DNA of 64,000 bases from NCBI GenBank assembly GCA_903813345.2, contig CAIIXF020000001.1, positions 43,059,366 to 43,123,365 on the forward strand, read 5' to 3'. Within the stretch, counting starts at the first letter, position 1, and every line of letters begins with the position of its first letter. The notes below the pieces were generated by a model that was given only the letters and a program-made list of their open reading frames with translations, did not search any database and was not told the DNA's origin. The position numbers were made by a program, and so were the translations under genes. Of the stretch, positions 2,024 to 64,000 are shown piece by piece. This stretch comes from Owenia fusiformis (taxonomy: Eukaryota; Annelida; Polychaeta; Sabellida; Oweniidae).

Positions 2024-5000
2024 ATGGCCACGACAACCGGTAATGGCTCCGACGAACTTACAAATCCCGACTTTAGTTTTGATACATCGAAATTCAAGAG
2101 ACGAATGTTCAGGACAAAATCCATCAAAAACCCTTCAATAGATGACGGTGAAAAGGGACTGAAAAAATGCTTGACAACGTTGGATTTGACCTCACTTGGG
2201 GTAGGGAGCTGCTGCGGCACTGGAATGTACGTGGTAGCGGGTTTGGTTGCCGAAAAGGTTGCCGGTCCAGGTGTTATTCTCTCATTTATCATCGCAGCCA
2301 TAGCATCGATGTTATCAGGTAAGTTAACACCCACCAACGGGGAATACGTACACTACATATGCACTTGAGGCTCTCTCTCATCCCACCTTGTATAGATCGC
2401 TGCAATTGGGATATTGATCAACATTAAATTGTCGAATGGTTAATTGGTACTTTATGTCATTGGTCTTTGATTAAAAATGTATGACTTGATTATCATTGAT
2501 TATTACCTAAATGTATGAAAACATTCCATTTGCATGGTCTATTCAGTTCTGTATGCTTCCTTTGACTGTTTTAGTGACTGCTTTCTCATTATAACTCCAT
2601 TAAGGATAATCACAAGGCTCAAGGAAAAAATTTTGATGAAAGATATTGTCGCACCCTCCCCCCTTATTCTGTCTATGGGTGGGAGGTACACTGAAACATC
2701 AGACCGTGGTAAATACTCCCCCATAGGACAAATAATATTTAAAGCCTATATTTAAGGCAATTTTTCGGCCAATTGTAATTGAGGAAAACAAATCTAAATA
2801 TCATAAACAAGCTTACCCAATGAGAAATCGGACCAGTTTTGGAAAAATGTAGCAAGAACAATTAGTTGCGTCCAGAGACTATCATATACGTGCATCTCTT
2901 GATAACAAAAGATACACGATGATTTATGACTTAGTTGTGGTATACTCATCTTGGATGTGATGTGAAGTTTTGGAAATCAAACTGGTAAATGATGATCACT
3001 GTGATGATGGTATAATAGGCGAGGCAGTTTCTTACTGAAGATTTTGATTGTGGTCTAATCGCAGGGGAATTTCGGAGTAAACATTGTAGTTGTGGTCTTA
3101 TCCCGGGGCAATTTTTCAGTGAAATTAATTAACCATTAATATACATGAACCTCGACACATTTGATAAGAAAGGGAATATCTCGTATACTACAAGTCTACA
3201 TCATGATAAACCATGACATCTCATTTCTTCTCAGCCCTGGGATGTTGGTTCAGGTGAAACAGACAGATGCTATGAGTATCAGAATGACAAGTCTACGTTA
3301 TTTCCAATAGGATCGTGTGACTACACTACAAGTTAGGTCTATGTAGCTGTACTCATTTTACTTTTTAATATTTTCGTTACAAATCCCCCTTCACTAAAAG
3401 GGTGATCCTCGCATAAGCCTGACAAGTACTATACTATCGCAAATAAATTCGATCGGCGACCAGTCTGATTATTGCCGTTTCGTTATTCGATGTTAGAATC
3501 ATAGGAGGGGGTTAAGCTAACCCTTTTCAATAGTTGACAACATTCATATTTTTCCAATACCTCCTATAGCCTGCTAGTACCGAATAACATTAAAAGCATA
3601 TATTTATATTATACGATCTGTCTGTTTGTTAAGCAGTATTCTCTTGATCGATGCCTCATTTGGGTCTACATATGATATCCCCGCCGTTCCAAATGATTAT
3701 CTCCATAAATGATCGGTCATAGGGAAAGATTTGCACTCCCTAAGGTCTTCATAAAAGGAATAAATTATTACCAACAAGGATTCTATGGAATTCAATGCGT
3801 TCAGCGATTCTATAAATGAATGGGTATTATTTCTGTTCGTATTGTGATTACTCGATAGACCACATCCGGTTTGGAACCGATGCTATAAGATCGTGGGTGT
3901 TGGCTTTAGATGCAATAGATCTTACGAGTAATTGAGGGATTTGAGTTTAAAGAGTCGTCTGCCAATTATCAATCTGCCTGTTTAAATGTTTGCTAGATGA
4001 AAATAGTTTAATCATAGAATCGTTGTGGGTGCAGATATCATACATCATAACAGCGAAATTGATAATGGATGATGTAATTAGTACTCTGATACATTGCTTC
4101 TCTTTGCTATACATTGTTTTTTATGGATGGTGTTCAACGGGCGGCGTAAAACGTAGAAATTGAGCCGAAGTGGGGAGTCTCTGATTGCAAGTATCTGAAA
4201 AAATTCAATGGGCATCCATGCCCTTGAAGGAATCGTCCAAATACGATCCAAGTGGTCATTGGTATTATGCCCTTGAGCTGTTAGGTGTTAATTCAATTTT
4301 GTTCAGTTGATCACTTTGGTCATGAACTTTCAATTGCCCATGCTTTGGTGCACAAGTCTTTAGCGTCTCCTGTTTTGAGCTTGTATTATGTCATAATAAT
4401 AATGTCATAATGAGCATATACGTTATGGTCGTATTAACTCAACAGGAAATACAGTATATGCCATGGCTACTCTTGAATCATGACACTGTTGCAACAGGAA
4501 CCCTATCAGTACAAATAAATAATAAATATTTCTCATAATAGATTGCTTCTGAAACAACAGTTATACATTGAATCTGTTAAATGCCTAAGTAAACATTTGA
4601 AGAAACGACTGGTCGATTTCTAGGTTTATATAGGTAAATGAATATTTCCACAGATTCCTGCCTGGGAAATTTCAAATAGCATTTGTAAAGAATACCAGGA
4701 GTATTTGTGTAGAATGGTATTTCATGACGTTGTTCCAAATTAAGCATTGCTGCAAAAATAGACACTCCCCCACTTCAGCAATGTTTCGTTCGATATTCTA
4801 CTCCGAGCAAGAAGGTTCACAATATAGCTACCGTGGGAATTCTCCAGACTTCAATACGACATAGAAGCACAATTATGGTAAACCCCGCTGATGACTTAGT
4901 AATTACGGTAACTGAAAGTTGATTTTATTCACAATCTTTGTGATGTTTTTATCGATGGTAGCATATTCCATACATCTTCATAGATATTAATGTGAAATAA

Positions 5001-8000
5001 CAAGCTGCGATAGTGGTTAACACGTCAGAAATGAACATAATATTATTCGAAGCGTATTTCAAAATTTTTGAGGAAGCCATTTTGTTTGTCGATTTTGACC
5101 AATCAGAGACGTGTCATCACCCCGATTCACATTCGTGTTACCTTCGGCCAACTTCGTTTGCAATGCAAATCTTCGGCAATCTCTGGTTTTTCTTGAGGTA
5201 TCTTCGGTTGAATGCCAAAAATCGTCACCCTATTCACTAGTTAGTTGTATTTTGATGACACCATTAGTTATGCTTTGATGACATCATGATCATAATGTGC
5301 GATGACCCCGCAAGCGCAAGGTTTCAAAACAAGCTGGATGGTTCTCGAATAACATGCAGTTTCACCAAAGAGCATTGGCAGCCATTATTCAAATTTGATA
5401 CCCCGTTGCCTGCAGTGGAACAATTTAGTAAAAGTATTTCTATAAGGTTCTCTTTGGACCAAGTTTATCGTTGAAAGATGGTCATTACGAATATTTTGGT
5501 AGTATTCAAGCTTCCTCAGCAGTTCTAGTCTGATTTTCCAGAAAGCACTTGCTACCCATGTAAAGATGGTACAATGTTTAATATGTTTTAAGTTTAAGAA
5601 AAGTTGACAATGATTTACCTGTCGACTATGCTCATACACAGGTCAACACTAAGTGGGAAACGTCTTCTCTTTGCATTAACACATGAAAAGTTTCCAAACT
5701 AGTGGAATGAAATTGACCTCAAGTCACCTAATCATGGGTCGCCAAGGGTCACAGCAGCCTCCAAGGTCCTTGAAACGCCAAAAACCTAAATATTGACCTT
5801 TGACCTTGAAATGACCTTGAGATGACCTTGACTCATAAACCTTGACCTTGACTTAGGGTCACGGAATCATGAGTTGCCAAGGGTCACAGCAGCCCCCTAG
5901 GTATTAAAAAGTAAAAACCTAGATACTGACCTTTGACCTTGGAATGACATTGACTTCAGTTCACTTAATCATGGGCCACCGAGGTTCACAACAGCCCCAA
6001 TGACATTAAATCACCAAATATCTAGATATTGACATTTGACCTTTGAATGACCTTGATCTTAAAAATGAAAGTGGGGTAAGACGGAACGATCGTTCAAAAG
6101 AAGGGATTGAGCATAGATGCCACGATGCTTTTTTAGTCTGACAAGCTAAAATACAATATTTCCCTCGAGCTAGCCGTCATATCGCCTTTCCTCAAGCCTG
6201 CTCTCTTCTTTATTTTCTAGTATTTATCGGGAAGATCCCAAGGTGATGACAGCACATGATAGTTCAATAAATCTCATAACTTACAAACAATTTACTCTAG
6301 TCAAATAAAGAACACCATGTGAAGCCCAATGTAATGGCAGTCTATCGGTGGATGTTTTAGAAGCTAATTAATACTATATAGTTTTTATTGTGATTTAATC
6401 TTGAAACTCTCATTTTAGAGGGAATATGGTTATTTTATGGTATATTATCATATAAAATATTTCTTTGATAATTGTTAGATTGTTTTCAATCAACGATGCA
6501 AATTATGGTCTGTAGAGCATTATAATTGCGTATTTGATATTATCCAACAGGGGATTGCGATACCCGTTCACTCAACTAATGAAGCTAGGTAGACACTCTG
6601 CACATTTAAGTGCATAAAGGAATATCAATGAAACATCCAATTTTGAGGCACATTCCAATATTCTAAGTGACGTGTATATTGCAGCCTTGAGTATTTCTAT
6701 TGTTAAATTGGTGAAAATGATCACACGTTTCGCATACAATTTAAATATTATTCACCTATAGCTTAAGTCTCAACTGTCCGTGGGCGATGAAGATGTGACA
6801 CTACGATTGAAATTGCTTTCGGAACTTTGATATTTTATGTATATTTGGGCTTATCAAACCTAAACAACCAACTTTTAATTCCAATCCAATAGATCCAAAA
6901 GAGTACATTTGAATAAAACCAAGATTTTATCATACATATTGCTCTTAAGAGAGTATAATATATCTCGATGCAATTCCCAAATTAATGCTTAGATGCTTTA
7001 CCAGACGTTTATTCTCGTTGCCTCCGCCATTAATCTAACGGAGATCTTCTATATGGAGAGCATAATTCCTGTTTGGTACACTCTGCGTAGATGTATTTCG
7101 TGCCTAGCGTATGTCACCAACCAGTCGCACCCACACGCGTCCATTTCATGTCGTTTAAAAGTAAAATCCCACAAGGCTATTGATTCCTTTTCAAGAATAT
7201 TTTTGTTATTGGCCTTAGAAATTGGAAAACTACAATTTATCAGGATATTTATTTGGCTTGGTTCTTTCTCCATTTTTATATTTACGGAGCATAATTCGTG
7301 ATGCTAATACATTTGTTTTGTTCTAACACTATATTCTAGGGGCTGAACGTAAGCAGTGAAAAGTGTAAAATATATTCGATTGTGGCCGGAATTACTTTAA
7401 TATTTAGTTCCGCCCACGATTAAAGGACTGCTAATTTCCTCACGAAAGATGATCCATTGCAAGTTCCATGGTTAGTAATGTTCAGTTCCAGCAACCCGTC
7501 AACTGCAGGATGATGGGGTGATGTGCTAGATACCTTTAGATACAAATGGTGTCAAGATGAACATGTTTTTGTCCTTAGAACGTATATGATAGAAAATGAT
7601 AGGTTTGAAATAATTAATTGTACGTTGTTACCAAACTAGTGGCGAATTTCGGAATGCAGAGAATCTACATGTAGTACAGGTCAAGATTATGAACCTGTGA
7701 CAAAACAATCCTATTCCCCAAAACGTTAACTATGTACTTTCAAACGAACCCACGTACAACGCTATGAACTATCTAAATATTTAGATTCAACAATATCGTG
7801 TTAAAGTAATAGAATTTTGATGTACGTCACACTTATTCAGTAGATGGGCAACGTCGATTATGACAGAGGTAATGGAATGGACACAGGGCGAGATAAAAAT
7901 GAGCAAATTACTTCAATAGTACATTGGTTGAGTTCATTGCCCATGTTAAAGGAAGTAGGCCCTAATCCCATCCAAACTTATTGAGAACCCATTCAATCTA

Positions 8001-36700: not shown

Positions 36701-39700
36701 AATAAATATTTAAAAGTTGTAGCTTTCAGTTTTTTATTTTTTCATTTTGAGCTTACGTCCCTGTTGATGGTGTTAAATGTTATTATGTCCCATAGAATAA
36801 TCTTAAGGCATTTGTCTATCTTGTTCAATGAGATTATCATAGGATTATAGGATAACAACATAAGCCATGTTTGTCATTAATTCCAGAGATACATGAACTT
36901 AACAGCAAAACAAAAAACAACATCTTCCTTATCTAAAAAGAATCCTGTCTTTTAGAAAATATAGTGTCCCATTTTCTCTAGTTCTGTTTCAATACAACAC
37001 TGTTTCTACTGGGATAACACCAGATTCTGTCACATTCATTTTATCGCTCGTTTACACCAGATTTTAGCAAAACATGAAAACCCCTTAAATTCATTTGCAG
37101 GTATGATTGTGATTACTGAGGGAATGGTTGGCTTGCCTGACACATCATTGTTTGAGTCTCTCCTAGTGCAGCTACGTAACAGCACAATCGCCTGCTCATT
37201 TATCCAAGTGGGCAGCAAGAACTGTGCGGGCAGTGGTTGGGGTCACATGGCCTATGTTGAGTTGATGCAGTTTATCGCAACAGCAACGTTTGGTGCCTTT
37301 TTCGCAAATGCTCCTGTAGTGGTAAGTCACTTGTTTTTTTTTAGAATTTTACTTCATAATTATTTTTCTTTGTTTTACCTTCCACATACACATGCACATT
37401 GCATCATCTTTGGTTTTTCACCAGCCACCAACTTTTTTGAATACAAAGAATTTGTAAGTCTTTTAACTTAACAACCACCATTCCTTCAGTTCTCAGCTGT
37501 AACCCCAGTGACCTTACATATTTGAGTCGAATTGTTTTACATTATGTTTACATTTGTATTTCTTGATGTTATTGCAGCCTTTGGAGGCTGAAGGGGAGGA
37601 GGGTCTGAACATATACCACAAAGCATTCTTCCTATGGAGCTTCCAGAAAGGTCTTGAAGGGTTCAATGTAGATGTCTCTAGTCAGCTCTCAAAAGTGAAG
37701 AAACCTGCTGAAGAATTGGTTTGGTCTGAAAGGTAACCTCAGAATTAGTGATGGAATTTCTTTGGAAGTAAAAAAAGTGGCAGATTTAGATGGGGGGGGG
37801 GGGGTGGTGCACATATTTTAGATTACAGAATTAATTTAATTTACCAATACAACTTCTAATTATTGCCTTCATTTATGCGTAGACAGAAAGAGAATGATTT
37901 AGACATATATGCCTCTCCCTCTCCAAAATGTTAAAAGTGTAATGTACAAGGGTTGATCATAAAGTTCTCACAATATCTCAATTCACATGAAGATAGTCAT
38001 GTTTAATGTTTAATGGGAGTATGGTATTCTAGTAAGTTTTTTTTTATTTGCCCTTGGTACCTTGATTATAGGTTACTATGGCAATCATTTCTTATTTAGT
38101 ATTTCTGTTACACTGATTCTTGCTTGATTAATAAGGCACTCTTTGCTGCACATTCTGTATTAAAATATATTAAAAATAAAGAAATTAGAGAGATACTGTG
38201 AGAACTTTATGATCAACCATTGTGTGACACCTTAGATTCTGTATCCTCTATTTTTTGCTATAATTATGTTAACCAATCTTTCTTGAATTCATTTTATAGA
38301 ATACTCACTCCATCTGGAAGTAGCATTTGGGAACCTATCATAATGCGCAAGAAACAATTGGAGAAAACGCTACAAAGTCCATTAGCGAGTATTATATCGC
38401 TGCGGCTTAGGGAGGGCTATACAATCAAACATGTCACGATAAAAGGTATTGCCTTGTCTTTTATTACTTAACATGTAGAAATAGTATGCATTGTACAAGT
38501 ATTACATTTTAAATTTGGTGCAGGTGGAATGTGTTTAACCTGTTTCATTTTATTCATATTCTGATCTCAGAATTTCTATTGAAAGATATATTTATTACTT
38601 TGTCTATTGGACTGTAAATATGAAGTATTACACCCATGTTCATTAAATGCCCCACCCATATTCCTTGTGGATACAAGATAAGCTATACAACACCTTAAAG
38701 TGTAAGATGAGATCTAAAATATAGTGTTTAAAATTAGTGAAGCTCTGTCAGTGATAGGCCCTTGTGTAATTTGTTTATATTCCCTTCTACCTGAACAGGT
38801 GAGAGTCAAATAGAGGTGTGCCTTATGCTGCCTTGGAGGGACCATGTCAAAATAGAATATACAGCATCATCTGTCTGGCCCCTCAGCAGAACTAAGTAAG
38901 TGGTTTATACATACCATCATATATTTTCAAGACCATAATAATTATTATTTTGATCATGGACATATATTTATTTTAAAACTCTCGTTAATATTACATCATG
39001 CAATCCCATCTTACTTTTTATTATCGTACCTAACAAGAGGTACGATATTGTAGTCAGCTTGACGGGCGGCGGGCGGGCGGCGTCTCACTTTTCAGTAGGG
39101 ATGGGACGGTTCGGTTCGGTTCGGTTTTTCGGATCATCAGCCGTCGGTTCGGTTTTTTTCGGTTCGGTTCATTCATTTTAAGGATTTGTATTAATTGACA
39201 TGATTAGCTGCTTTGTCTCTGATGTTATAACAATATTTTATAGATGGAATTTTATGTTATAGTATTTCATGAACAATACATATTATTTAGAATACACGAC
39301 TAAAGAATATAGTACCAGGGACCACATGATTGATTACCGAGGGATACGAATACGCGGATACGAAACGAATCTAGTAAACGAGTGAGCTAGCAACAGACAA
39401 GACAGACAAGACTAGGAATATCAAAAATGTTGCTGTAAAACAGTGTTTTTAACTGTTTTATTGATACTTGACCAATGAAATATTAATCCGAAAACGATCC
39501 GAAAAGCTGATCCGAAAGTAGGGCCGTGATCCGAAAACCGATCCGAAGGCTATGAACCACGGTTTTTCGGTATTTCGGTTATCTGTCCCACCCCTACTTC
39601 TCAGCTTGTCTACAGGTTTCCAGCCAAACCATTTGAGGGATTCATCTGAAATTTTCAGGGATGTTTCTACATATCAAAGTCAAGAACTGATTAGTTTTTG

Positions 39701-52089: not shown

Positions 52090-52731
52090 ATGGCATGCTC
52101 TATTAATGAGCAGATAATTCCAAAAAGAGACCAGTCAGTGAAAAAGCTAATATCAATATTTGAAGAAAAATTTAAAGACAAAGCGGTAACTGGTCGTCAA
52201 AAGGAATATGACGAAATATCGAAAGAAGATAAACAATTGAGAGACACCTCTATTAATACTCCAACAATTGTCAAGCAAACAACCATCAACTACAATACTA
52301 CAATTATTGGAGAAACTGTTAATGTTGGTATTGGCCAAACTAAGGAGTCAGATATTGACAGTGGTTTTGTATTAGCTAATGAAACTCCGTCTGGTGACAG
52401 TAATGAAGAACACAACTTTAAAACATCACATGTAGAGAAAAAATTGGATGAATTCAAAGGAGCAGATGGTGTCATATTAAGGAATAAAAGAGATGACAAG
52501 GTTGTAAGAGAGGAGCTGAGTCGTTCTGAACCACCTCTGACTGATGTTGATTCAACTGAACTTGGTAGAAAAACAACAAATTCAAATGTTGATGATGAAA
52601 TAGCCCTTGGCAGACGGAAGATTTTGATTGCTATGTCAATATTGCGTGATAAAAAGGAAAAAGAAAAGGAAAAAACAAAAAACAAACCCTTTAAATTGTT
52701 TGGATCTCTGTTAAAAAAATCCAATCCATAA
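52090..52731 (+). CDS. Uncharacterised 213-aa protein with candidate amyloid-type motif
   Basis: I do not recognise this protein. It is a single open coding exon. The N-terminal part (residues 13-60) is basic/acidic and helix-prone (VKKLISIFEEKFKDK). Residues 63-82 (TTINYNTTIIGETVNVGIG) are beta-prone and Asn/Thr/Ile/Val/Gly-rich, resembling RHIM-like cores in composition but not matching the I/V-Q-I/V-G core. A DSGFVL sequence follows (residues 90-95), and the rest is charged and probably disordered. Residues about 176-213 are very Lys-rich and end KPFKLFGSLLKKSNP, a possible membrane- or nucleic-acid-binding tail. AATAAA lies 19 bp after the stop, implying a very short 3'UTR. The arrangement (motif, then S-x-FVL) recurs in the 167-aa gene at 58035. 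The function is unknown. Confidence 0.7.
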   Translation: MACSINEQIIPKRDQSVKKLISIFEEKFKDKAVTGRQKEYDEISKEDKQLRDTSINTPTIVKQTTINYNTTIIGETVNVGIGQTKESDIDSGFVLANETPSGDSNEEHNFKTSHVEKKLDEFKGADGVILRNKRDDKVVREELSRSEPPLTDVDSTELGRKTTNSNVDDEIALGRRKILIAMSILRDKKEKEKEKTKNKPFKLFGSLLKKSNP

Positions 52732-52798
52732 AATGAATTAGAAAAATAGAATAAAATAACAAGAATTATATACTAGGATAAAGGTGAGTGCATTTGTG

Positions 52799-52996
52799 AT
52801 GCCTTTCGGAGCAACGAGCGTAGAATTTAACAATATTGAAGGGCCTATCATTATTCATCCCGAATCAAACATAAACGATGAAACATTGATCAGAGAATTG
52901 GGGATTGAGGTCCATGAAATAACCAAACTTGCTGTTATTTTCGCCATTTATAGGGATGATGTCAATGTACAAGATTATAGATTCCCAGATGATTGA
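52799..52996 (+). other. Doubtful 65-codon ORF downstream of the 213-aa gene
   Basis: The frame reads MPFGATSVEFNNIEGPIIIH onward and is open back to 52756. I do not recognise it. It follows the likely poly(A) signal of the preceding gene. An AAG|GTGAGT donor-like word at 52781-52789 stands just upstream. It could be a degraded exon, a separate small exon or chance. Similar-sized random frames are common in this window. Confidence 0.2.
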
Positions 52997-53334
52997 AAAG
53001 ATGCATGGTTCTTCATGTATGCAGAATTAGAGCACAGTTATGCTGTATTCTGATTGGATGAGAAATTCAATTAGAGAACGGTCATGTTTGAAAAAACTAT
53101 AAAAGGTTAATACCATACAGATCTGATTGTTTGTCAGTTGAATTTTGCTTTAAAAACATTTTATTTGTGTACAAATGGAACAGTTATAGTAAAATTAAGC
53201 TATTTACCATCACTATTTATTATAGACATATACTGATCTTGAAAGACTAAAATGATTAACTTAAAAAAAACTGTTCTTAGACAATGCTATGCAGTGAGAG
53301 ACTTAGAATTGATATGATGCAATGCAGATATGGC

Positions 53335-53920
53335 TAGCCTTGCCCAAGTCGGTCTCTTTTACTTATGTTGATTTCTATTATGACCGCCTTGTACCAATGA
53401 GAAAGCCACGTGCTAAACCGACTCATTGTTTATGTCGGTAAATTTGACCAATCAACGACGGTCCTGCAGCATTAGCTCATTATTATGCACGATCAAGACA
53501 AATACACTTTTCACGAACAAATCCTCCGGCAAATGTTGCACAATTCATCATGAAAATACAAATATTTTGTCAGATAAATATCAATCAGAGTTTAGTGGAT
53601 GCATCGATCGAATACCCAGAGGTGAGAAGATTTCAACAAGAAACGTTGAAAAGATAGTAATTCGTAGATGGGTAGTTTGCTTTGTTTAGGTGGGTAAACC
53701 TGAAAACGTTTTGATTGGTCAATCAGCCTGAAGTCACACGTTGTGTCCATGCTATCTTGCCAAACAATAAGGTTTCGCGATACCCCTGACAGTGTAGGTA
53801 TTATGGAAATCTCGAAACCACTGAATAACTTATAACATCAGCGATGATGCATTAGATTGTACAAGGCGGTAATAATTCAAGATCAGGAAAAGTAAAAAAT
53901 AACCGACTTGGGCAAGGCTA
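53335..53920. mobile_element. 586-bp MITE with perfect 9-bp target duplication
   Basis: The left end TAGCCTTGCCCAAGTCGGT and the right end ACCGACTTGGGCAAGGCTA are exact inverted repeats. The similarity continues to about 60 bp (ACCGCCTTGTAC). AGATATGGC flanks both sides (53326-53334 and 53921-53929). This fits Mutator-like or Merlin-type transposition. The internal frame 53426-53689 is not a transposase. Confidence 0.88.
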
Positions 53921-53940
53921 AGATATGGCCAGTATTGTTA

Positions 53941-54672
53941 TCCCATCGAACGAAGTTTGGAGGGATATAGGGAACGCCTCCATCCGTCCGTCCGTACGTC
54001 CATCCGTCCGTCCGTATGTCCGTCCGTCCGGGCAATAACTCAAATACCGTTGGTCTGATTTTGTTCATATTTTGTACACATATACCCTATGGGAAAGAAG
54101 TTCTACTCGAAAGCCGATTTTTAAAATGGCCACTCATTTAAAAATGGCAGCCATTTTAGTGCCGATTTTACGGTACTTTAGGTGCAATAAGTAAAACTGT
54201 AATAGCAATATGTTTTAAATGTAAAAATATTATATAGGACGCTAATAAACCTAGAAATGTAGATATTAAAGAAACACATGGCAGCCATCTTGAAAAAAGG
54301 CGGCCTTTACTCGTTATTTTACGATTTTTTTTACTATAGCTCGAAAAGTAGTGGAGGGATTTTGTTCATATTTGGTATGTGAATACTATAAGCATGGCAC
54401 ACTGTCTAATGACACTTTTGGTACAAGGCGGCCATTTTGAAAAATGGCCACCATTTAAACGTATTTTACTATTACTCGAAAAGTAGTGGAGCAATTTTGT
54501 TCATATTTGGCATGTGAATACTATAAGCATGACACACTGTCTAATGACACTTTTGGTAGAAGGTGGCCATTTTGAAAAATGGCTGCCATTTTTTCTATAT
54601 ACTTTGTTTGTAAATATGCCAGCCATGGCTGTTCAATGGGATTTGCTACGCTTTGGCGTTGCTGTTGTCTAG
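53941..54672 (+). mobile_element. Helitron-type element, 732 bp
   Basis: The 5' end is A|TCCCATCGAACGAAG and the 3' end is GCTGTTGTCTAG|T. The 3' hairpin is ACGCT, TT, GGCGT. Compared with ACTCC/GGAGT at 42753-42770, a T-A pair has become G-C with both partners changed. Internal units contain GGCCATTTTGAAAAATGGC and CGAAAAGTAGTGGAG. It starts 12 bp after the target duplication of the preceding MITE. Non-autonomous. Confidence 0.75.
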
Positions 54673-54957
54673 TTGATTTAGGGCATTGGTAAATAAACTA
54701 TAAACACTATTCCAGTAATGTTCCAGTATGAATGTGCATGAACATTTTAGACATCAAATGAATTTTAATGTGGTAGTGATGTGTACAAAGTAATATTTAT
54801 TCTGAAGAAACAGCATATTTATGTGTATAATAATGCAATACTGATAAAGAAACTCACCAATTATGTCAACATTTATAGATGCAGTATTGTTTTATTCCTT
54901 TTTGAAAATATACAAAACAGTATTCATTGGTGTGCAATGAATCTTGCTCATTTTCAT

Positions 54958-55079
54958 GTCACCACCAAAAGTGTTGACATATTGTCTCTATTTTTGTGAC
55001 GGCGGTTGGCATCGTGCAGTCAGCATCTGTAACTATAACAAATGACATGTGGTGAAATTTTGAATGTTAATGCCTTGTT
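54958..55079 (+). mobile_element. Family-A element, minimal copy (~122 bp)
   Basis: It starts GTCACCACCAAAAGTGTTGA, then CATATTGT, and ends GTGGTGAAATTTTGAATG followed by TTAATGCCTTGTT. It lacks internal repeats, so it shows the minimal end-to-end form of the family. Confidence 0.65.
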
Positions 55080-57954
55080 TACAATTGTTGCCAGCTGAGC
55101 TGTCAATGTTAGACATGAAATGTTTATTGTGTTCATATTTTCTTTGTATTGGATAGTTCTCATGAGACAATGAGAAGTTAAATTTCGTATCTCATATTAG
55201 TAAGAAAATAATAATGTAAATAATAAATTTGTTTCCCTTACATATGTACCACTTACCTGAAATATACTACATGTTTTTACAGATAGTCAAGTATTTTATT
55301 CAAGAGTTCAAGGAATCTAATGGTAAATTGTTAGGCCATGTATTAATTAAATGTTTAGATTTTTGTATAAAGCAAGTTATGAGGTAATATACTCTATAAA
55401 CAGAGGTTATTTGATGGGAGGGGTGGAATATGAATATGATATTTTCCGAGGCCAGTATCATATTTTCTCGGGGAAAAAATTCATATTTCATCACAACCAT
55501 CAATAATCTATTTATTCCATAATGTTTTTTCTGAACTTGTTCATTTTCCTGTCCTGTTTTGACTGTCATCACCCAATGATGCCGACATACAATGATACAA
55601 TACCAGTTATCATTTATCATTTTCAACTTTAATGAACAAGTTTTAAAATAGAACGAACAAAATCAAAATAAATCCGTAGGAAAAGTTCTAATACAGTATC
55701 TGATATTGGATTTTGGCTGATATGGGATTCAATATAAATCCAAAACATGTTATTATGGAATAAATCACAGTATTTGAATTTATTACAGGGTGACCTAAAA
55801 AATTGAACTTTTCAATGGTGTAAATGGTGTTTTGAAATGGTGATATACGAGGGTTGCTTCAAAAGTTCTGCACCGCTTGATCTAAAAATCTCAATAAAAA
55901 TACCCTGCTGTCACGGTGCTATGGTAACAAGACTCCTGTGTTACTGGAGTTGTTAGTTGTCATGGTGCTATGGTAACAAGATTCCTGTGACCAAATTCAT
56001 GGCTTATTTTTACACAAAATAAAACTACTATTCATGGGGTGGCTGAGGCCAAATATGAAAAATATTTATAGACTATTGAGATTTTTAGAGCAAAGGGTGC
56101 AGAACTTTTGAATCAATCCTCCTTCAAGTACTAATGATTAGCATCAATGACTGAGATTTAGAAAAAATCTTGTTCTCCATCGTGCCAATTCACCAAAAAG
56201 CAAGTTATGTGTCTTAGTCTTTATTTATGTTTCAAAAAAGAGCAAGAATTACTAGGTCAGCATAAATCTTCTGCAAAAATGAAGATCAAGAACTATACAA
56301 GTTGTAGAACATTGAGAAAAGTTGGTTAGAAGCCCACAAGCAGTTCTTCCTCTGTTAGATGAGGTTTATGTAGACATTGATCCACATCGCAATATTTTAT
56401 ACAGACAAAAATAGGATTTAGTTATTGTTAACTAATCTGATGGCCACTTTGAGGCATCAAGGAGTATTGCTTGTGAATGATATTCCCTAAATAAAACAAA
56501 ATGTTTGTATAGGATCTTTCATTCTATTAGGATATGCAATTCATTTACTTTTAGGGCATTTGTTATATTATGTTTTATTATCGAACTGTAAGACTGACTA
56601 TTATAAATAAATAAATAAATAAACTAAACTATATTCTATTTTATATTCTGCTGTTGTCTTCTATGGAAGGGGAACTTTTGTTAAACTAAGTTTCACTACT
56701 ACTATATTTCACGAGGCTTGCTTTATTTTATGTCTCTTGATTTTCATTATATCTGTCCTTTTTACTCAACAGTCATTAAACACTTTTGAACCATGGACTC
56801 ATTTTCTCAAAATCTTTGTTTATAGCCATATACATGTACTTTTGTTAGTGACCTTTTTATTTTTACTTTTTGTGGGAATGACTCATTTGCGCCAAGATCT
56901 CTATCTTTATGGCTACTCCCAATTCTGTATATTCCAAAATGGCTACCATGCAAGTACGCTGATGTGAAAATGTCATAATTATTGTATGCAGAAAATATAT
57001 TTGATCGGGATTTTGTTGCTCCCTTTTCCAAATCTTTGTTAACCCTTTTAGAGGTGGGCCAGATTTACCTCTATAAATTATCAAGACTGCAACATAATCA
57101 TCTACATGATTGTTTACTTCAGTGCCAGCATGGGCATAGCGCTATATTTCTAAGTAGTACGCCACCACGGGAACAGGAGTTGAGTAAGGCAATAAACGAG
57201 CATTTAGGGGGTCTGGGCAGGAAAGTTTTGAAATTTACTTGTATTTAGAGCAGTTGCAACCATCTGGTACGCCTGTGTGTACCGGGCGCTACGCCTATGG
57301 CCAGTGTACAATCCATTAGTTTGTACCATCAATTTTTTTTGTATATAGCACTATTTCTTCATTTTGAACATTTCAATTCAACAGAAAATAAGTTGACTGC
57401 GATAATTGTCAAGTATATTTCAAGATTGAGTTTTTAAGTATGACTTCAAGCATATATTATATTCTTAAAACAATGATATCAGATATTATTATGACAAATA
57501 AGAAACCTATTAGTAATTGATTTAAAGATGACTCATCTTAAAAAGAATAAATATATCTGGCCTGATTATCATATTTGCTAGGTATAAAAATCTGTTGAAG
57601 CTGGTATACATGTTCACATGTTTTTGTACCTGGGTTAAAATCAGTTCTTCTTATTCACATAGGAAGTGTTCCTAATAGATCATTGCCTTGAATATTGGGT
57701 ACTTATCTTGACATTCATCATCTTTAGAAGAAAGCGTCATTGAATTACCAAATTTTGGTGACTCATAATCTCTATAAATTAAAGTTCTAATAATATGAAA
57801 CAGGAAGCGATGATATGGTTTTGGCAAACAGGAACATTTTTAATGGGAGTAAGACCGTTTTGAATAATGAGAAATGAAATATATTAAATAAAATAGTTAT
57901 ATTGAAGTAATAGTATGTGTCACGTTCTCGAGTGGATTTTTATTTTGTTTGCAG
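55080..57954. other. Spacer between the 213-aa and 167-aa genes
   Basis: AT-rich with a MITE at 55848, an (AAAT)n run near 56605-56625 and no supported gene. The frame at 56982-57248 reads without recognisable features and overlaps antisense frames of similar size. The upstream 5'UTR exon of the 167-aa gene probably lies somewhere here. Confidence 0.4.
55848..56123. mobile_element. Mariner-like MITE
   Basis: The left end CGAGGGTTGCTTCAAAAGTT continues CTGCACC after TA. The right end, read in reverse, has GAGGATTGATTCAAAAGTTC and TGCACC. An internal segment with GGTGCTATGGTAACAAGA is duplicated. No ORF. Confidence 0.65.
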
Positions 57955-58034
57955 TAGATTTATCAACTCCTATTTCAATCAAAGATGCCTCATTCATAAA
58001 CATGGAAACAATAGGTTTGAAAACTTTGTAAACT
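57955..58034 (+). other. Probable 5'UTR exon segment of the 167-aa gene
   Basis: TTTTATTTTGTTTGCAG ending at 57954 is a strong splice acceptor 80 bp before the start codon. Two upstream ATGs open very short frames. The layout mirrors that at 51983. Confidence 0.55.
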
Positions 58035-58538
58035 ATGGCAAACTCAATGGATGAAAACTATGCAAATGCAGATTTGAAAAAGAAAGAAACTCATCAAATT
58101 GACACTAGTAAAAATACGATCACCATAAAAGCGGAGAATGTCTACATTTCGGGCAATAAGCATAATATTAGCTCATCTTCTTGTATAAGTATACATTGTG
58201 GAGATAGCGAATCAAACTCTGAGTTTGTATTAGAGAGTAGTGATATATCTGATGACAAAAATGATGACACGATAAATTTCTGTCAGCCACAATTTAAAGA
58301 ACCACTAAGTCGTTCGACCTTTTATGTGCCAACTCCAAATGAGGACATAGTTCAGTTAAGGTTGGATGGCATCCCAAAGACTAAAAGAACAGATATAGCG
58401 AAATCAGATCCTCTTCCCAAAAAGTCTGCTTGTGAACATGTCCCTAGTGCTAGACCAGCAAGCTCTCCTAGTGGATTGATTACCAAGGTTAAGAGTGTAG
58501 TGCATGGGAAAAGTGGCTATAAACAAATGGATAAATAA
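58035..58538 (+). CDS. Uncharacterised 167-aa protein with candidate amyloid-type motif
   Basis: I do not recognise this protein. It is a single coding exon. Residues about 26-48 (NTITIKAENVYISGNKHNIS) are beta-prone with a V-Y-I-S-G-N core. This closely resembles IYNIYINGNNNKI in the 938-aa protein encoded at 63869-61053. After it come an acidic Ser/Asp/Glu stretch with NSEFVL (residues 61-66) and a basic tail (GLITKVKSVVHGKSGYK). Most of the chain looks disordered. An AATAAA (58534-58539) overlaps the stop codon and a second lies at 58558, so the 3'UTR is short. The probable 5'UTR intron and the motif-then-FVL order link it to the 213-aa gene. The function is unknown. Confidence 0.7.
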   Translation: MANSMDENYANADLKKKETHQIDTSKNTITIKAENVYISGNKHNISSSSCISIHCGDSESNSEFVLESSDISDDKNDDTINFCQPQFKEPLSRSTFYVPTPNEDIVQLRLDGIPKTKRTDIAKSDPLPKKSACEHVPSARPASSPSGLITKVKSVVHGKSGYKQMDK

Positions 58539-59275
58539 AAAGTCTCATTTTATGCCAATAAACTAAGACTGAAAAGTATCCTATTTATGGAGGTGTTCTT
58601 CTTGGAAACATACGAAACGTACATATTATACTATGCATAAGGGTCATAAGGTGACGTTTAAAGACTGAACACAAGAACTTTACTCTGAATAACTTGAAAT
58701 GATAGGTGGATTGTATTTAGAAGGCCAGTGACAGATGAAAAATACACAAGTGGTCTACTTGAATTATTGTATTTTAAATACATCTTCTGAAGGGATGATA
58801 TATTCTGTATTTTATGAGAAATCATTGGATAATGTAATTTTATAGTACTATACTATGTTCTTAGAATCTTTATCTGTAATAGTGGTATATCGATAAATAA
58901 ATTGGATTTATCAATTGTGGCTGATGGACGGATACAATACAGAGAAGCATGTAACATTTTACATCTCAAAACTTGTCTGTCCTTATCAATGAAATCAATG
59001 CATGGCATGTTTTTAAGGATGTGTCTAGATCATGAACTATACTCAACATACTCGAATGACATACTGGCCAATATTCATATGAACATCATATTCTATATTA
59101 GGGGCCTACTACTTCTATGTGATCATATAGCATCAGATATTCAATATTGAAAAAGTGTGATAAAAAGAACCGTATAAGGAGTTTACTTATATAGTATACA
59201 CGGAAGTTTTATATTTCAATAAAATTATAATAGATTTATAAAATGTTTTAGAACATATAGACTGTTTTGTTATTA
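58539..59275. other. Region downstream of the 167-aa gene
   Basis: It holds poly(A) signals and AT-rich sequence. The frame at 58902-59150 shows no family features. Nothing else was recognised. Confidence 0.4.
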
Positions 59276-60051
59276 TCCCATGAGATGGATATAGAGAAGC
59301 CATCCATCTGTCTGTCCATTCATTTATTCATCTGTCCGGGTGATAACTCAAACTCAGTTGACAGTTTTGGTTAAAGAGTTCGAGTTGGGATATAGAAAAA
59401 TGAAAAAGCAGTCATAGATTTTGGTTAATGTCTTATGGGCAAAGGATCTCTGCTCATGAAGGCATTTTCAATATGGCTTCTCATTTCAAAATGGCCATAA
59501 TTTTTCGTAAAAACTAATCTTAGATAACTCAAATATCGCTTGATAGATTTGGTTCAAATTTTTATATGCCACTGCCTCTGCTCAAGAAGGAAATTTCATG
59601 AAAGCTGTTCATTTAAAAGTGGCCGCCATTGTTCATGATAAAAATGTAATATTTAATAACTCAAATTCCAGTTGATGGATTTATTTGAGATTTTATACGC
59701 TGATGCCATAGGGACATATCAATCTGCTCAAGAAGGTATTTCCATGGTGACTGCTGAATTCAAAGTGGTTGCCATTTCTCAGGAAAAATCTCCCTAGACA
59801 ATTTACCTGGTAACATAAATACCACTTTGATTTGTTCTAAATATTATACCCCAATGCCTTATGATCATAAGACTTCTACTAGAGAAAGAATTTATAGTAT
59901 GGAATCAGGTCACTTCATCATTGTAGATTTTGCAGAAATAAAATTACTCTACTGCTTCCTGGTTATTTTTCTATTCTGGTATGTTTATTGAGGGAATTGA
60001 TAATATATTGTTCGGTGGGATTTGCTACTCTGGGAGGCTGCTGTTTTCTAG
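59276..60051 (+). mobile_element. Helitron-type element, 776 bp, diverged
   Basis: The 5' end is A|TCCCATGAGATGGATATAG and the 3' end is GCTGTTTTCTAG|T, with TTCGGTGGGATTTGCTACTC close to the end. The hairpin is weaker (CTC, TGG, GAG). Three diverged internal units with ATAACTCAAAT words are visible. It is the most diverged of the three full copies. Confidence 0.65.
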
Positions 60052-60689
60052 TAAACACTTCAACTCAAACGAGAGCACTATTTGAGTGGATTGACTGGTT
60101 TTGCTGTTGATTTGCTGAAGACAGGGTTCTTTCCTTACATCTATATCATCACGTGTGTGAGAAAGTATGAAGTCAAATAGAGTAGTAGTACCATATGAGT
60201 GCCATATTATTTTACAATCAGGTGTTTTTATTTATTGAGATTTGTCCCTGTAAGAGGTGTACCATTGGCAGGTTTTACTGTACAAGGAAGTAATAAACTA
60301 TAATTATACTATGAATTTGCAAAAATCTTGTCGACATTTACTGTTACGCTAGAGTAGTACGAGACATACAATACCAAAGATGTTTTTGCTGTAGAAATTT
60401 ATTCATATAAGAAAATAGAATCTGTACAAGAAATATCACAAAGATATGCAACATGTAGCTATAATGTAGTAATTGTGATATCACATATCAAATGAGAATT
60501 ACAATTATAATTCATTCTAAATATAGAAGATAATAAAAGGCTTTCTTTGAATATGTTTGTTCTGTATTTAATTACATAACTTATGGAAAGGCTAATGTTT
60601 TTAAACAACCTATTTATATAGATCTGATGATGTTCCAACAACCTTCACCAATTATAAATAATTAAGATTTACAGGAACTCACTAATCTC

Positions 60690-61000
60690 TGATCTACTGA
60701 CCGACCTGATGAATCTGTTATATTACGAGTCATTCAATTTATTGATGTCAATCAATGTAATATTGTCAATCAATATATTAATGTCAATCAATATATTAAT
60801 GACTCATACAAGAGTCAATCAAATATTAATGTGCTAAAATTGCAATGCTTTGTGAATAAGGCCTCAGATGAATCTGTTATATATATATATGAGTCATTCA
60901 ATTTATTAATGTCAATCAATATTTTAATGTCAATCAATATATCAATGATTCAAATAAGAGTCAATCAATATACAAGTATTAATTTGCTAAATATTGCAAT
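60690..61000. repeat. Duplicated AT-rich block with 20-bp sub-repeats
   Basis: Two ~140-bp blocks (about 60708-60848 and 60867-61000) share GATGAATCTGTTATAT, GAGTCATTCAATTTATT, multiple ATGTCAATCAATAT words, AAGAGTCAATCAA and a final GCTAAAATTGCAAT-like word. The array lies just beyond the 3' end of the 938-aa gene and may be in its 3'UTR. Confidence 0.75.
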
Positions 61001-61052
61001 AACTAAAGAAGCACATTATACTGACTGTCATATATGTTGATGTTATATATTT

Positions 61053-63869
61053 TCATGCAAAATGTTCACCATCTGGGTTGACCATGTGAGGTGTACTTTG
61101 ATTTGATACTAGTCCAAAGACATTCCCCTCCATTAAAAACATCATTCTCTCAGTCCTTATTTCAACTTTCTCTGCCGATTGTCTCACATATGATCTTGGC
61201 ATTTGCCTCACATATGATCTTGGCATTTGCCTCACATTTGACTGACTGCTTGTGCTGTTTATTTCCTGAACACAGAGTTCTTTTCTCACATCTGTAGACA
61301 TGATACAACTTTCAACAGTTTCTTGTCCTACAGTATTTCTTTGTGTTTCTACAATGGTTATGTTTTGTCGGGTAGGTTGAAAAACCTTTGTTTCCTCTGT
61401 CTTGACATTAGCAGTGTGGATGACACTTCGCGATACTTTTATATTGGAAATCTCACTCATGTCATTAGATATTTGCTTCTTTTTCTTTCTTATTACCTTT
61501 GTTCTGGAAAATGGACTTATTTTATCAAAGTCATCATCACTGTCAAAGATTTGACTGTTTTCGGTATCTGTCACTTTGTTTTTCTTTATAGTGCTAACAT
61601 GTTTCCTCTTCAGCTCAACAGTGTTGTTCATGTCATCTGTAATACTCTCTGAGAAAGTGTGGATTTTTTGGACCATATGAGTGCCATAATTAGCAGTCTG
61701 TTGTTCTTTATTTGTTGTTGGTGTTGCATCAACATGGTTTTGGTCAGCAGTGGCAGTCTGTAGAAATGTTTTCCTTCTACATACAGGTTTTCTTTCAGGG
61801 CTTTCTCGTACAAATGAATTCTCTGAGCTCTTTGCTGACTCATGACGAAGATTTGGATCAGATTTTGCACTATTGGGTGCAGTGGGAATATTGGCAGGCA
61901 GTGGCATTGGTGGTCTTTTTTGTACTCTGAACATATCTCTAATATTTTGTTTCGTTGAAGTATCTAGATTTTCATATAAGGGCGTATTATGATTGATTAG
62001 TTTTATTTGGCTCATTGGCCTAACCTTGTTTGTTATCCTTTTAATTAAATATTTTCTTGTTGGACTTTTGGAGTCTGTTGGAGATGTTTGCTTTCCACTA
62101 ATCACTGGGAAGATTTTTGTTGAAGGAGTATTCATGTGCTGAAAATTCCCTCCATATGTATATGGTAATTCTTCATAATGCTCTTCATTCTCATCTTCAT
62201 ATCTTGTATTGGTTGGCATCGGTTGGTTTGTAAATGAGGAATCTGAAGTGACCTCACCCTTGTCTGCCAATATGATACCAGCCCTACTTTTGTCAGGTGA
62301 ATTTTCATCATAGCTATTTTCATATTGTGTTGGCTGGTTTCTGATATTTTCTTCTTCTTCATTATGCAGTTCTTCTTTCAATTCCCTTGATTCTTCTTCA
62401 GAAAAATCAGAACTTTCGGAATCGGAGTCAGAGTCTTTGTATTTATAAGGTAATATTATTTCTCCATTGTTAATGTTTAAATTGAAGTATGTTTTGTTAG
62501 TTTTTGTAAATTGAGAATCTGAATTTTCTTGGTGGGCAGTGACCTTATCCTTGTTAGGCAATATAGTATCAGTGTCTCTTTTGTCACTTTTCTCATTCCT
62601 GTCTGAATCTTCAGATTCAGAATCTGCAATTCTCAATGTGTCATAAATGGACTTGGGTTCATATTTTTCAGTAGTATCTGAAGAATGTGGGTATATCACT
62701 TCATATTGTGTGGTGTTTGAACCTGAGTCAGAATCTAATTGTGAGGAACAATTAGAATCCGAGTCTGCATCTTTTAGAGAATCTTGATGTGGTAATAATA
62801 TGTCTCCATTATTTTCTTTTTCATTGTTTGAGAACTTATATTGATCATATTTCGCAAGGGCCTTGCTGTTTTCAGCAAATATGATATCAAATTCACTTTT
62901 GTCAGCTGAAGTGTCATCATAGCTATCTGAATCTTCAGAATCATTTGGAGATATTACTTCTCTGCTATTTTTGCTTACATGGTCATCTGTGACTATTGAT
63001 AATAAGTCCATGGACGCACCATGCCTCTCACTTTGATCAGAGACTGAAGGTTCAGTTGCTGTATCTGACACAAAATTTGTTCTTTTATCAACTGTTTGTA
63101 CATACTTCATTTGATACATATATGGTAAACTGTCTTCATCACCATGGCTTGAAGGATTCAAGATGTCATTTCGATTGTTTAGAGCAATGTAATCAGTTGT
63201 GATGATTGATTGTAAGTCAACATGATCATTTGGGTTCTCACTTTCATCCCTTGAAGGTGGTTCTGCAGCTACACTTGTGACCCATTCTTCTGTTCTGTCT
63301 ATTCTAGAACAAACCATCTTTGATTCTTCTCTCTTAATGTTAATGTAGGTAGACTCTGGAGAAATAGGTTGTACACACCTTTGAGTTATGCATCCTGCAG
63401 TTTGTTTTCCATTTGTGATCTTACATTTTAATTCTGTCACTTCATTTGTCGGTTCAATGGATTCTGACTTTTGTTTAATGTCCTGTCTTACCAATGGTTG
63501 TACTTTAGTATTACTTTCATCAGTATCACAAATTTCATCGAATTTATTTTGATAATGTATTATTTTATTGTTATTTCCATTTATATATATATTATATATT
63601 TTGGGGCGACGTACAACTTGAGAATCAGGAATAGCTTTGTCACCACTGTCATTTGATTTACTTGTATCTTTTTGGTTTGTGTCACCATTGTCATGTGATT
63701 CACTTGTGGCTTTTTTGTTTATGTCACCATTGTCATTCAATTTACTTGCTTCTGTTTTGCTTGTAAGTCTTTTTGTGAAAACCTCTAATATTGGTTTTCC
63801 AATATATCCAACCATGTTTAAAATGTTATGTGCCACAACAAAAATCGCATCTACTACCCCACGCCACAT
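61053..63869 (-). CDS. Uncharacterised 938-aa disordered acidic protein with candidate amyloid-type motif
   Basis: I do not recognise this protein. It is one unbroken minus-strand coding exon. The ATG lies 7 bp after a TTGATTTTGCAG acceptor (63877-63888), so a 5'UTR intron, or an upstream coding exon, is likely. Residues 1-33 are hydrophobic/amphipathic (VVDAIFVVAHNILNMVGYIG). Residues about 44-77 hold three ~16-aa repeats around N-x-GD. Residues 91-107 (IYNIYINGNNNKIIHY) are the candidate assembly motif. A long Ser/Asp/Glu-rich region follows, with YEVI, YDTL, YEEL and YENL motifs (near residues 388, 409, 566 and 633). A proline-rich RPPMPLPANIP sequence comes after YENL. Near the C-terminus RQMPRSYV is repeated in tandem (24-bp DNA repeat), and the protein ends FGLVSNQSTPHMVNPDGEHF. 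It looks like a scaffold or adaptor. The function is unproven. Confidence 0.75.
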   Translation of the reverse strand: MWRGVVDAIFVVAHNILNMVGYIGKPILEVFTKRLTSKTEASKLNDNGDINKKATSESHDNGDTNQKDTSKSNDSGDKAIPDSQVVRRPKIYNIYINGNNNKIIHYQNKFDEICDTDESNTKVQPLVRQDIKQKSESIEPTNEVTELKCKITNGKQTAGCITQRCVQPISPESTYINIKREESKMVCSRIDRTEEWVTSVAAEPPSRDESENPNDHVDLQSIITTDYIALNNRNDILNPSSHGDEDSLPYMYQMKYVQTVDKRTNFVSDTATEPSVSDQSERHGASMDLLSIVTDDHVSKNSREVISPNDSEDSDSYDDTSADKSEFDIIFAENSKALAKYDQYKFSNNEKENNGDILLPHQDSLKDADSDSNCSSQLDSDSGSNTTQYEVIYPHSSDTTEKYEPKSIYDTLRIADSESEDSDRNEKSDKRDTDTILPNKDKVTAHQENSDSQFTKTNKTYFNLNINNGEIILPYKYKDSDSDSESSDFSEEESRELKEELHNEEEENIRNQPTQYENSYDENSPDKSRAGIILADKGEVTSDSSFTNQPMPTNTRYEDENEEHYEELPYTYGGNFQHMNTPSTKIFPVISGKQTSPTDSKSPTRKYLIKRITNKVRPMSQIKLINHNTPLYENLDTSTKQNIRDMFRVQKRPPMPLPANIPTAPNSAKSDPNLRHESAKSSENSFVRESPERKPVCRRKTFLQTATADQNHVDATPTTNKEQQTANYGTHMVQKIHTFSESITDDMNNTVELKRKHVSTIKKNKVTDTENSQIFDSDDDFDKISPFSRTKVIRKKKKQISNDMSEISNIKVSRSVIHTANVKTEETKVFQPTRQNITIVETQRNTVGQETVESCIMSTDVRKELCVQEINSTSSQSNVRQMPRSYVRQMPRSYVRQSAEKVEIRTERMMFLMEGNVFGLVSNQSTPHMVNPDGEHFA

Positions 63870-64000
63870 AATGAATCTGCAAAATCAAGGATGGTATTAT
63901 TGAAGAGATTTTCAAAAAATGATTAAATTTAATTCAATCCTTCCCCTGTCAAAGGAAAGAGATTATGAATTATTACTGATTTGTCTTAACTAGCAGGTTA

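Follow-up and report, generated by a model that had tools for sequence, protein, structure and literature searches.

Three candidate orphan genes in a 64-kb window of Owenia fusiformis: two probable tandem paralogs and little support for a shared signalling amyloid

Background

Disordered orphan proteins that are confined to one lineage and contain internal repeats are a general kind of protein. The three open reading frames (ORFs) described here, of 213, 167 and 938 aa (P1, P2 and P3), lie in a 64,000-nt stretch of Owenia fusiformis DNA (the window) and resemble that kind in that they match no family, are of low complexity, and show duplication both internally and as adjacent copies; only an 11-residue segment common to P2 and P3 sets them apart from it.

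Signalling amyloids, as treated in PMC7889193 and PMC9444067, have to date been described from mammals, flies, lancelets, fungi and bacteria, and the core tetrad of the RHIM is given as (V/I)-Q-(V/I/L/C)-G (PMC9444067). The RHIM proteins RIPK1, RIPK3, TRIF and ZBP1, like P1-P3, embed a short, beta-prone segment containing Asn and Gly within a disordered chain, with VNVG in P1 as a further likeness, but P1-P3 have no Q tetrad, profile match or partner domain. The fungal PP/HET-s and bacterial BASS3 motifs are alike in being short Asn/Gly-rich segments of small, adjacently encoded proteins, and unlike in that P1-P3 were found with no Pfam match, PP pattern or NLR/cell-death neighbour among the ORFs scanned. 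The original prediction grouped P1-P3 as a new family with a RHIM-like or amyloid-type assembly motif and P3 as its scaffold. In the literature on RHIM and amyloid signalling in invertebrates, molluscs and metazoans, no description of P1-P3 was found among the titles and abstract openings listed.

Results

Gene models

All three ORFs, and the segment quoted for each in the original prediction, were located in the window where they had been placed. P1 (52090..52731, + strand) encodes a disordered protein and has its ATG right behind an in-frame stop; P2 (58035..58538), 5.3 kb away on the same + strand, also encodes a disordered protein; P3 (61053..63869, - strand) encodes an acidic, repeat-rich protein. 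An SZT2 exon is also present within the window. The 213 aa of P1 exceeded the longest ATG ORF of all 60 simulated windows, and the 167 aa of P2 were attained by the longest ATG ORF in 4 of the 60. AATAAA begins 19 nt past the stop codon in both P1 and P2, and a strong start context combined with AATAAA within 30 nt was found in 3 of 193 ATG ORFs of at least 40 aa, namely P1, P2 and a 43-aa ORF (4949-5080). No acceptor-like site above threshold was found within 300 nt 5' of P1. Codon usage, judged against a small training set picked by eye, favoured the correct frame in P1 only, and an antisense frame outscored it in P2 and P3. The frame of P3 is open upstream as far as 63884, beyond an acceptor-like CAG (63877-63879), so an additional P3 coding exon may lie outside the window. 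P1, P2 and P3 would each be an orphan protein-coding gene, with the visible coding sequence of each in one exon.

Similarity of P1 and P2

P1 and P2 gave a local alignment score of 63, compared to 36 +/- 6 in 1000 shuffles (p 0.002); this score was reached in 0, 1 and 0 of 500 window-preserving shuffles and in 0 of 1000 shuffles in a further shuffle test, and reversed P3, more than five times the length of P2, scored a nearby 61 against P1. Alignments placed DTSINTPTI in P1 (52243..52269, + strand) opposite DTSKNTITI in P2 (58101..58127, + strand). These are followed by the beta-prone segments, INYNTTIIGETVNV in P1 (52285..52326, + strand; overlapping VNVG) and NVYISGNKHNI in P2 (58137..58169, + strand), and then by DSGFVL in P1 (52357..52374, + strand) and NSEFVL in P2 (58215..58232, + strand). 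A [DN]S[GE]FVL motif does stand behind the segment in both proteins as proposed, but at spacings of 10 and 15 residues rather than 12-20.

Masking of the FVL motif and its flanks reduced the similarity to chance level (233/1000 shuffles), masking of the beta region left a weak signal (28/1000 shuffles), and the part preceding the beta segment gave a score reached in 17 of 1000 shuffles. The two beta segments alone fell short of the mean score of their shuffles, 682 of 1000 of which did at least as well, and no similarity was found downstream of the FVL motif (503/1000 shuffles). The signal thus derives from the acidic SxFVL motif and the DTSxNTxTI stretch and not from the beta segments. At the DNA level the comparison was not significant for the coding sequences (21 of 200 shuffles reached the score) or for the flanks (5', 148/200; 3', 20/200). 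The suggested paralogy finds support at the protein level, where the similarity is above shuffles, but not at the DNA level. To judge from sequence, P1 and P2 probably arose as paralogs by an old tandem duplication, and their conserved core probably consists of DTSxNTxTI, then a spacer that is beta-prone but variable, then the acidic motif S-x-FVL.

P3 and its links to P1 and P2

The segment of P3, NIYINGNNNKI (63561..63593, - strand), is 91% AT over 33 nt and sits in the most AT-rich part of its gene; the DNA of the P2 segment is 70% AT and is no AT repeat. Between P2 and P3 the quoted 11-mer alone stood out (3/500 shuffles), with 18/500 shuffles at width 10 and 9/500 at width 14, p 0.043 for 75-residue segments and p 0.32 for the whole proteins. 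No similarity above shuffled controls was found between P1 and P3. The strict P2-P3 pattern occurred in 0 of 150 simulated windows, the pattern having been derived from those two hits themselves. Similarity above shuffles was thus found for P1 and P2, for P2 and P3 in the 11-mer only, and not for P1 and P3. A three-member family is not borne out, since P3 resembles P2 in the 11-residue stretch only and shows no similarity to P1, and the scaffold role given to the 938-aa protein is not supported either. The N/I/Y segment of P3 need not share homology with that of P2. Direct alignments established degenerate internal repeats in P3 (62058..63290, - strand), consisting of a pair of ~60 aa and then units of ~90-110 aa (two clear, one weaker), and a decayed partial 3' copy lies downstream of P3.

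Disorder and predicted structure

A charge-hydropathy plot placed all three proteins on the disordered side, as expected from the original prediction, but P2 only barely; the segments are located in the first 40% of the chains. The structure prediction for P2 had a mean pLDDT of 35. The 13-residue beta propensity peaks at the segment in P1 and P2, but in P3 the N-terminal helix is higher, and an AGGRESCAN-like scale put the top hot spot elsewhere in P1, P2 and P3, which argues against a shared assembly motif. AlphaFold2 and the hydrophobic moment predicted a single hydrophobic/amphipathic helix at P3 residues 3-41 (63747..63863, - strand), with AlphaFold2 block pLDDT values, from one sequence, of 80, 84 and 74 for residues 1-30 and 57 for residues 31-40. 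A beta hairpin was weakly predicted at residues 85-97 and 103-115 (block pLDDT 50-64), with NIYINGNNNKI inside it. Comparison of the P3 N-terminus to PDB folds returned 55 matches at E up to 10, which were dismissed as meaningless (best E 3.7).

RHIM tests

The canonical RHIM core is absent, as had been noted, as the strict pattern [IV]Q[IVL]G..N.[MLI] did not occur in any of the window's six frames; a looser tetrad scan found VNVG in P1 (N replacing Q) and nothing in P2 or P3. A Pfam-A search of the three proteins returned 0 families at E up to 10, with HMMER filters discarding most weak matches; NCBIfam gave no match, and PDB sequences gave none better than E 0.83. A home-made position matrix built from the human and mouse RIPK1/RIPK3 RHIMs and scored against shuffles performed at chance (p 0.41 for P1, 0.65 for P2 and 0.72 for P3), which speaks against a RHIM-like motif; its best place overlaps the segment in P1 and P2 and lies elsewhere in P3. 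Alignment of the segments to the RHIM gave p 0.26 (P1), 0.29 (P2) and 0.08 (P3), and HMMER with a RHIM alignment returned only short, negative-score matches, in P1 and P2. RHIM membership was rejected on the Pfam search, position matrix and segment alignments. Loose RHIM-like patterns listed in the six frames numbered 37, compared to 38.6 +/- 7.0 in 150 simulations, so such patterns are common here. No kinase, TIR, Z-nucleic-acid or similar domain was found in P1-P3; the possible upstream P3 exon lies outside the window.

Neighbouring ORFs and relatives

Neighbouring ORFs were scanned for families beyond 48 kb (107 of 144 ORFs of at least 42 aa, E up to 0.1) and up to 48 kb (80 of 128 ORFs of at least 62 aa, E up to 0.01), and no NLR or cell-death family was among those listed. 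For the 107 ORFs scanned beyond 48 kb, 15 families were listed, with no death, TIR, CARD or kinase family among them; PDR_CDR, the best of these 15 (one ORF, E 0.00043), was attributed to chance given the number of ORFs scanned. The suggested PP/HET-s type met with no Pfam match, no hit of a loose PP pattern and no NLR/effector family among the scanned neighbours. Viral contigs contained no relatives of P1, P2 or P3 by exact peptide patterns, which detect close relatives only, and none of the P1/P2 alignment by two patterns. Prokaryote genomes and phage records, queried with P3 only, yielded no relatives. PHROGs yielded weak matches only (best E 0.011). A viral or bacterial origin was rejected, as no close relatives were found in viral contigs (P1-P3) and no relatives in prokaryotes and phages (P3 only). 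A scan of the proteins for short linear motifs, among them pLxIS, TRAF, degron and LIR, gave nothing convincing; P3 has five candidate LIR-like matches.

Discussion

We give roughly even chances to P1-P3 being fast-evolving, largely disordered orphans, of which P1 and P2 are probable tandem paralogs working via short docking motifs. P1 and P2 would be small flexible adaptors, whose acidic, serine-rich FVL motif and hydrophobic spacer would serve to dock with a folded partner, phosphorylation perhaps controlling the binding; taken by itself this docking mechanism is tentative and rather doubtful. P3 would be a separate acidic, repeat-rich protein whose N-terminal amphipathic helix may contact a membrane; this contact, like the rapid evolution of all three, is presumptive. 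The reading leaves the above-chance P2-P3 11-mer as a coincidence. It also takes P2 to be coding, whereas P2, and possibly P1, could be a chance open frame or decayed exon, as the simulated windows attaining 167 aa and a codon usage that fails to favour the P2 frame would allow; the similarity to P1, the strong start context and the AATAAA just past the stop codon make this quite improbable.

The 11-mer would be accounted for if the segments were a common assembly motif of RHIM-like action and divergent sequence, by which P1 and P2 template onto P3 and the P3 helix brings the resulting assembly to a membrane. Consistent with this are the weakly predicted P3 hairpin with its NGNNN turn, the VNVG of P1, one residue off the RHIM tetrad, the early position of the segments in chains plotted on the disordered side, and the overlap of the best RHIM-profile places with the segments of P1 and P2, though at chance scores. 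However, the RHIM profile is at chance in all three proteins and Pfam is blank, the P1 and P2 beta segments are unlike each other and the P1-P3 comparison is blank, no death, TIR, CARD or kinase family was listed for the nearby ORFs scanned, the segment is never the top aggregation hot spot on the AGGRESCAN-like scale, and the P3 N-terminus has no convincing PDB fold match. We consider a common assembly motif unlikely, and a shared signalling amyloid of P1-P3 has little support; the specific form of an animal signalling amyloid unrelated to the RHIM, based on an N-G-N-turn beta-arch with P3 as membrane-anchored seed or effector and P1 and P2 as small adaptors, is very improbable. Alternatively, the segments may share no function, AT-rich I/Y/N/K codons yielding beta-prone, Asn-rich peptides and the P2-P3 pattern being a post hoc coincidence. 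The AT content of the P3 segment, the equal frequency of loose RHIM-like patterns in simulated DNA and the weak P2-P3 significance after counting several widths and pairs agree with this, but the P2 segment does not consist of AT-repeat DNA and the strict pattern was absent from the simulated windows, albeit built from both hits; we regard this compositional origin as possible but not probable.

Conclusions

If true, an invertebrate non-RHIM signalling amyloid would broaden the known group, and the present evidence falls short of this. The locus advises caution: a disordered protein encoded by AT-rich DNA can contain short I/Y/N/G segments that mimic an amyloid motif, and it is the segment itself that has to be compared with shuffled controls.

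Gene models and genomic context

The three open reading frames (ORFs) lie at 52090-52731 (+; P1, 213 aa), 58035-58538 (+; P2, 167 aa) and 61053-63869 (-; P3, 938 aa). In 60 simulated windows, the longest ATG-initiated ORF averaged 131 aa and reached a maximum of 199 aa; by length, therefore, the P3 ORF is not a chance frame, the P1 ORF very probably is not, and the P2 ORF is doubtful when judged by itself. Both P1 and P2 combine a strong start context with an AATAAA beginning 19 nt past the stop, a combination found in only 3 of the 193 ATG ORFs that are 40 aa or longer, the third being a 43-aa ORF. There are acceptor-like sites ahead of P2, giving an exon start at 57955 or 57958, and ahead of P3, giving an exon start at 63876, with two more farther upstream; the 300 nt upstream of P1 contained none above threshold. 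The P3 frame is open beyond the nearest acceptor, so a further coding exon may lie upstream, beyond the window end. A codon-usage comparison, with a handful of exons picked by eye as its training set, selected the sense frame for P1 only among the three. A donor-like AAG/GTGAGT is present at 52783-52789 (+), about 50 nt past the P1 stop; its GTG is also the start of an open frame of 70 aa (52784-52996), which would thus be intronic if this donor were used.

The three ORFs are downstream of two recognizable sets of coding sequence. Residues 32-118 of a 168-aa ORF at 36965-37468 (+) match the KICSTOR protein SZT2 in PDB (E 9e-20), identifying this ORF by similarity as an SZT2 exon. Among 80 ORFs scanned in 1-48 kb, four matched an amino acid permease family, and two related families were also matched; the best of these matches, which include the permease C-terminal family, has E 3.5e-17. 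The permease ORFs, placed by eye at about 2-22 kb (+), probably belong, as exons, to a cationic amino acid transporter gene. The two sets point to an animal as the most likely source of the DNA.

P3 contains degenerate internal duplications: a 14-aa unit present about three times near the N-terminus, one pair of about 60 aa, units of about 90-110 aa (two clear, one weaker) and, close to the C-terminus, an 8-aa unit. A 57-nt stretch at 60089-60145 (-) matches the 3' part of the P3 gene at 82% identity (E 3e-10) and looks like a decayed partial tandem copy. A tandem repeat (135-bp unit, 1.9 copies) occupies 54329-54591, between the P1 and P2 genes.

RHIM and related motifs

RHIM is defined by the tetrad (V/I)-Q-(V/I/L/C)-G, as described in PMC9444067, and PP and BASS3 are reported as its relatives (PMC12261475, PMC7889193). 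A strict pattern had no match in any frame of the window (P1 carries VNVG), and a Pfam search of P1, P2 and P3 returned no family. A position matrix was built from human and mouse RIPK1 and RIPK3 RHIMs, with letters verified against PDB chains and insertion of one residue permitted after the third tetrad position. Human RIPK3, itself a matrix member, scored 67 versus at most 8.3 for P1, P2 and P3 (p 0.41, 0.65 and 0.72, respectively); the best places fell on the short Ile/Val/Tyr-Gly-Asn (beta) segments in P1 and P2 and elsewhere in P3. The RHIM-like motif of the original prediction was not borne out by pattern, Pfam or matrix. One protein of a bivalve iridovirus, which has CARD and RHIM domains, is reported to be similar to sequences of bivalve origin (PMC12452177), so genuine RHIM proteins may occur in molluscs; by the tests made, P1, P2 and P3 are not among such proteins.

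None of the beta segments was the top hot spot of its protein on an AGGRESCAN-like scale. P2, modeled from a two-sequence alignment, was disordered along its full length (mean pLDDT 35). When P3 residues 1-150 were folded alone, residues 3-41 formed a predicted helix, with block pLDDT between 57 and 84, and residues 85-97 and 103-115 a weak predicted hairpin (pLDDT 50-64) around the N-G-N-N-N turn; a single-sequence prediction at such confidence is a hint and not evidence of assembly. A PDB fold search with the P3 N-terminus found no match better than E 3.7.

Relationships among the three proteins

The original prediction was that the three proteins may form a new family; similarity above shuffles was found for P1-P2, was confined to a single 11-mer for P2-P3, and was not seen in P1-P3 protein comparisons. 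P1 and P2 scored 63 versus 36.1 +/- 6.2 for shuffles (p 0.002), a score matched by 0, 1 and 0 per 500 shuffles preserving local composition. In masking tests of 1000 shuffles each, the P1-P2 score was reached by 233 with the FVL region masked, 28 with the beta region masked and 600 with both masked. The beta segments alone gave a score reached by 682/1000, the part ahead of them by 17/1000 and the part beyond FVL by 503/1000. It is therefore S-x-FVL and DTSxNTxTI that carry the resemblance; the proposed amyloid segment does not. Against the suggested paralogy, reversed P3 scored 61 with P1 and DNA-level comparison of P1 and P2 yielded nothing significant; paralogy is likely but not proven.

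The 11-mer was the best ungapped pair of its width between P2 and P3 (reached by 3/500 shuffles; 18/500 at width 10 and 9/500 at width 14 for the best pairs there). It is modest evidence, because nine pair-by-width tests were made and the pattern had been picked by eye. The P3 copy lies in the most AT-rich stretch of its gene (91% AT over 33 nt), the P2 copy is 70% AT, and the two are identical at 21/33 nucleotides. Given this match and the predicted P3 hairpin, the proteins may have a common non-RHIM assembly motif, but that the P1 and P2 segments fail to match each other argues against it.

The economical reading is of three orphan, mostly disordered proteins. P3 is a repeat-built protein whose relation to P1 and P2 is not shown. 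P1 and P2 probably arose by an old tandem duplication and have in common a short core through which, as the masking test and the acidic, serine-rich setting of FVL suggest, they may dock.
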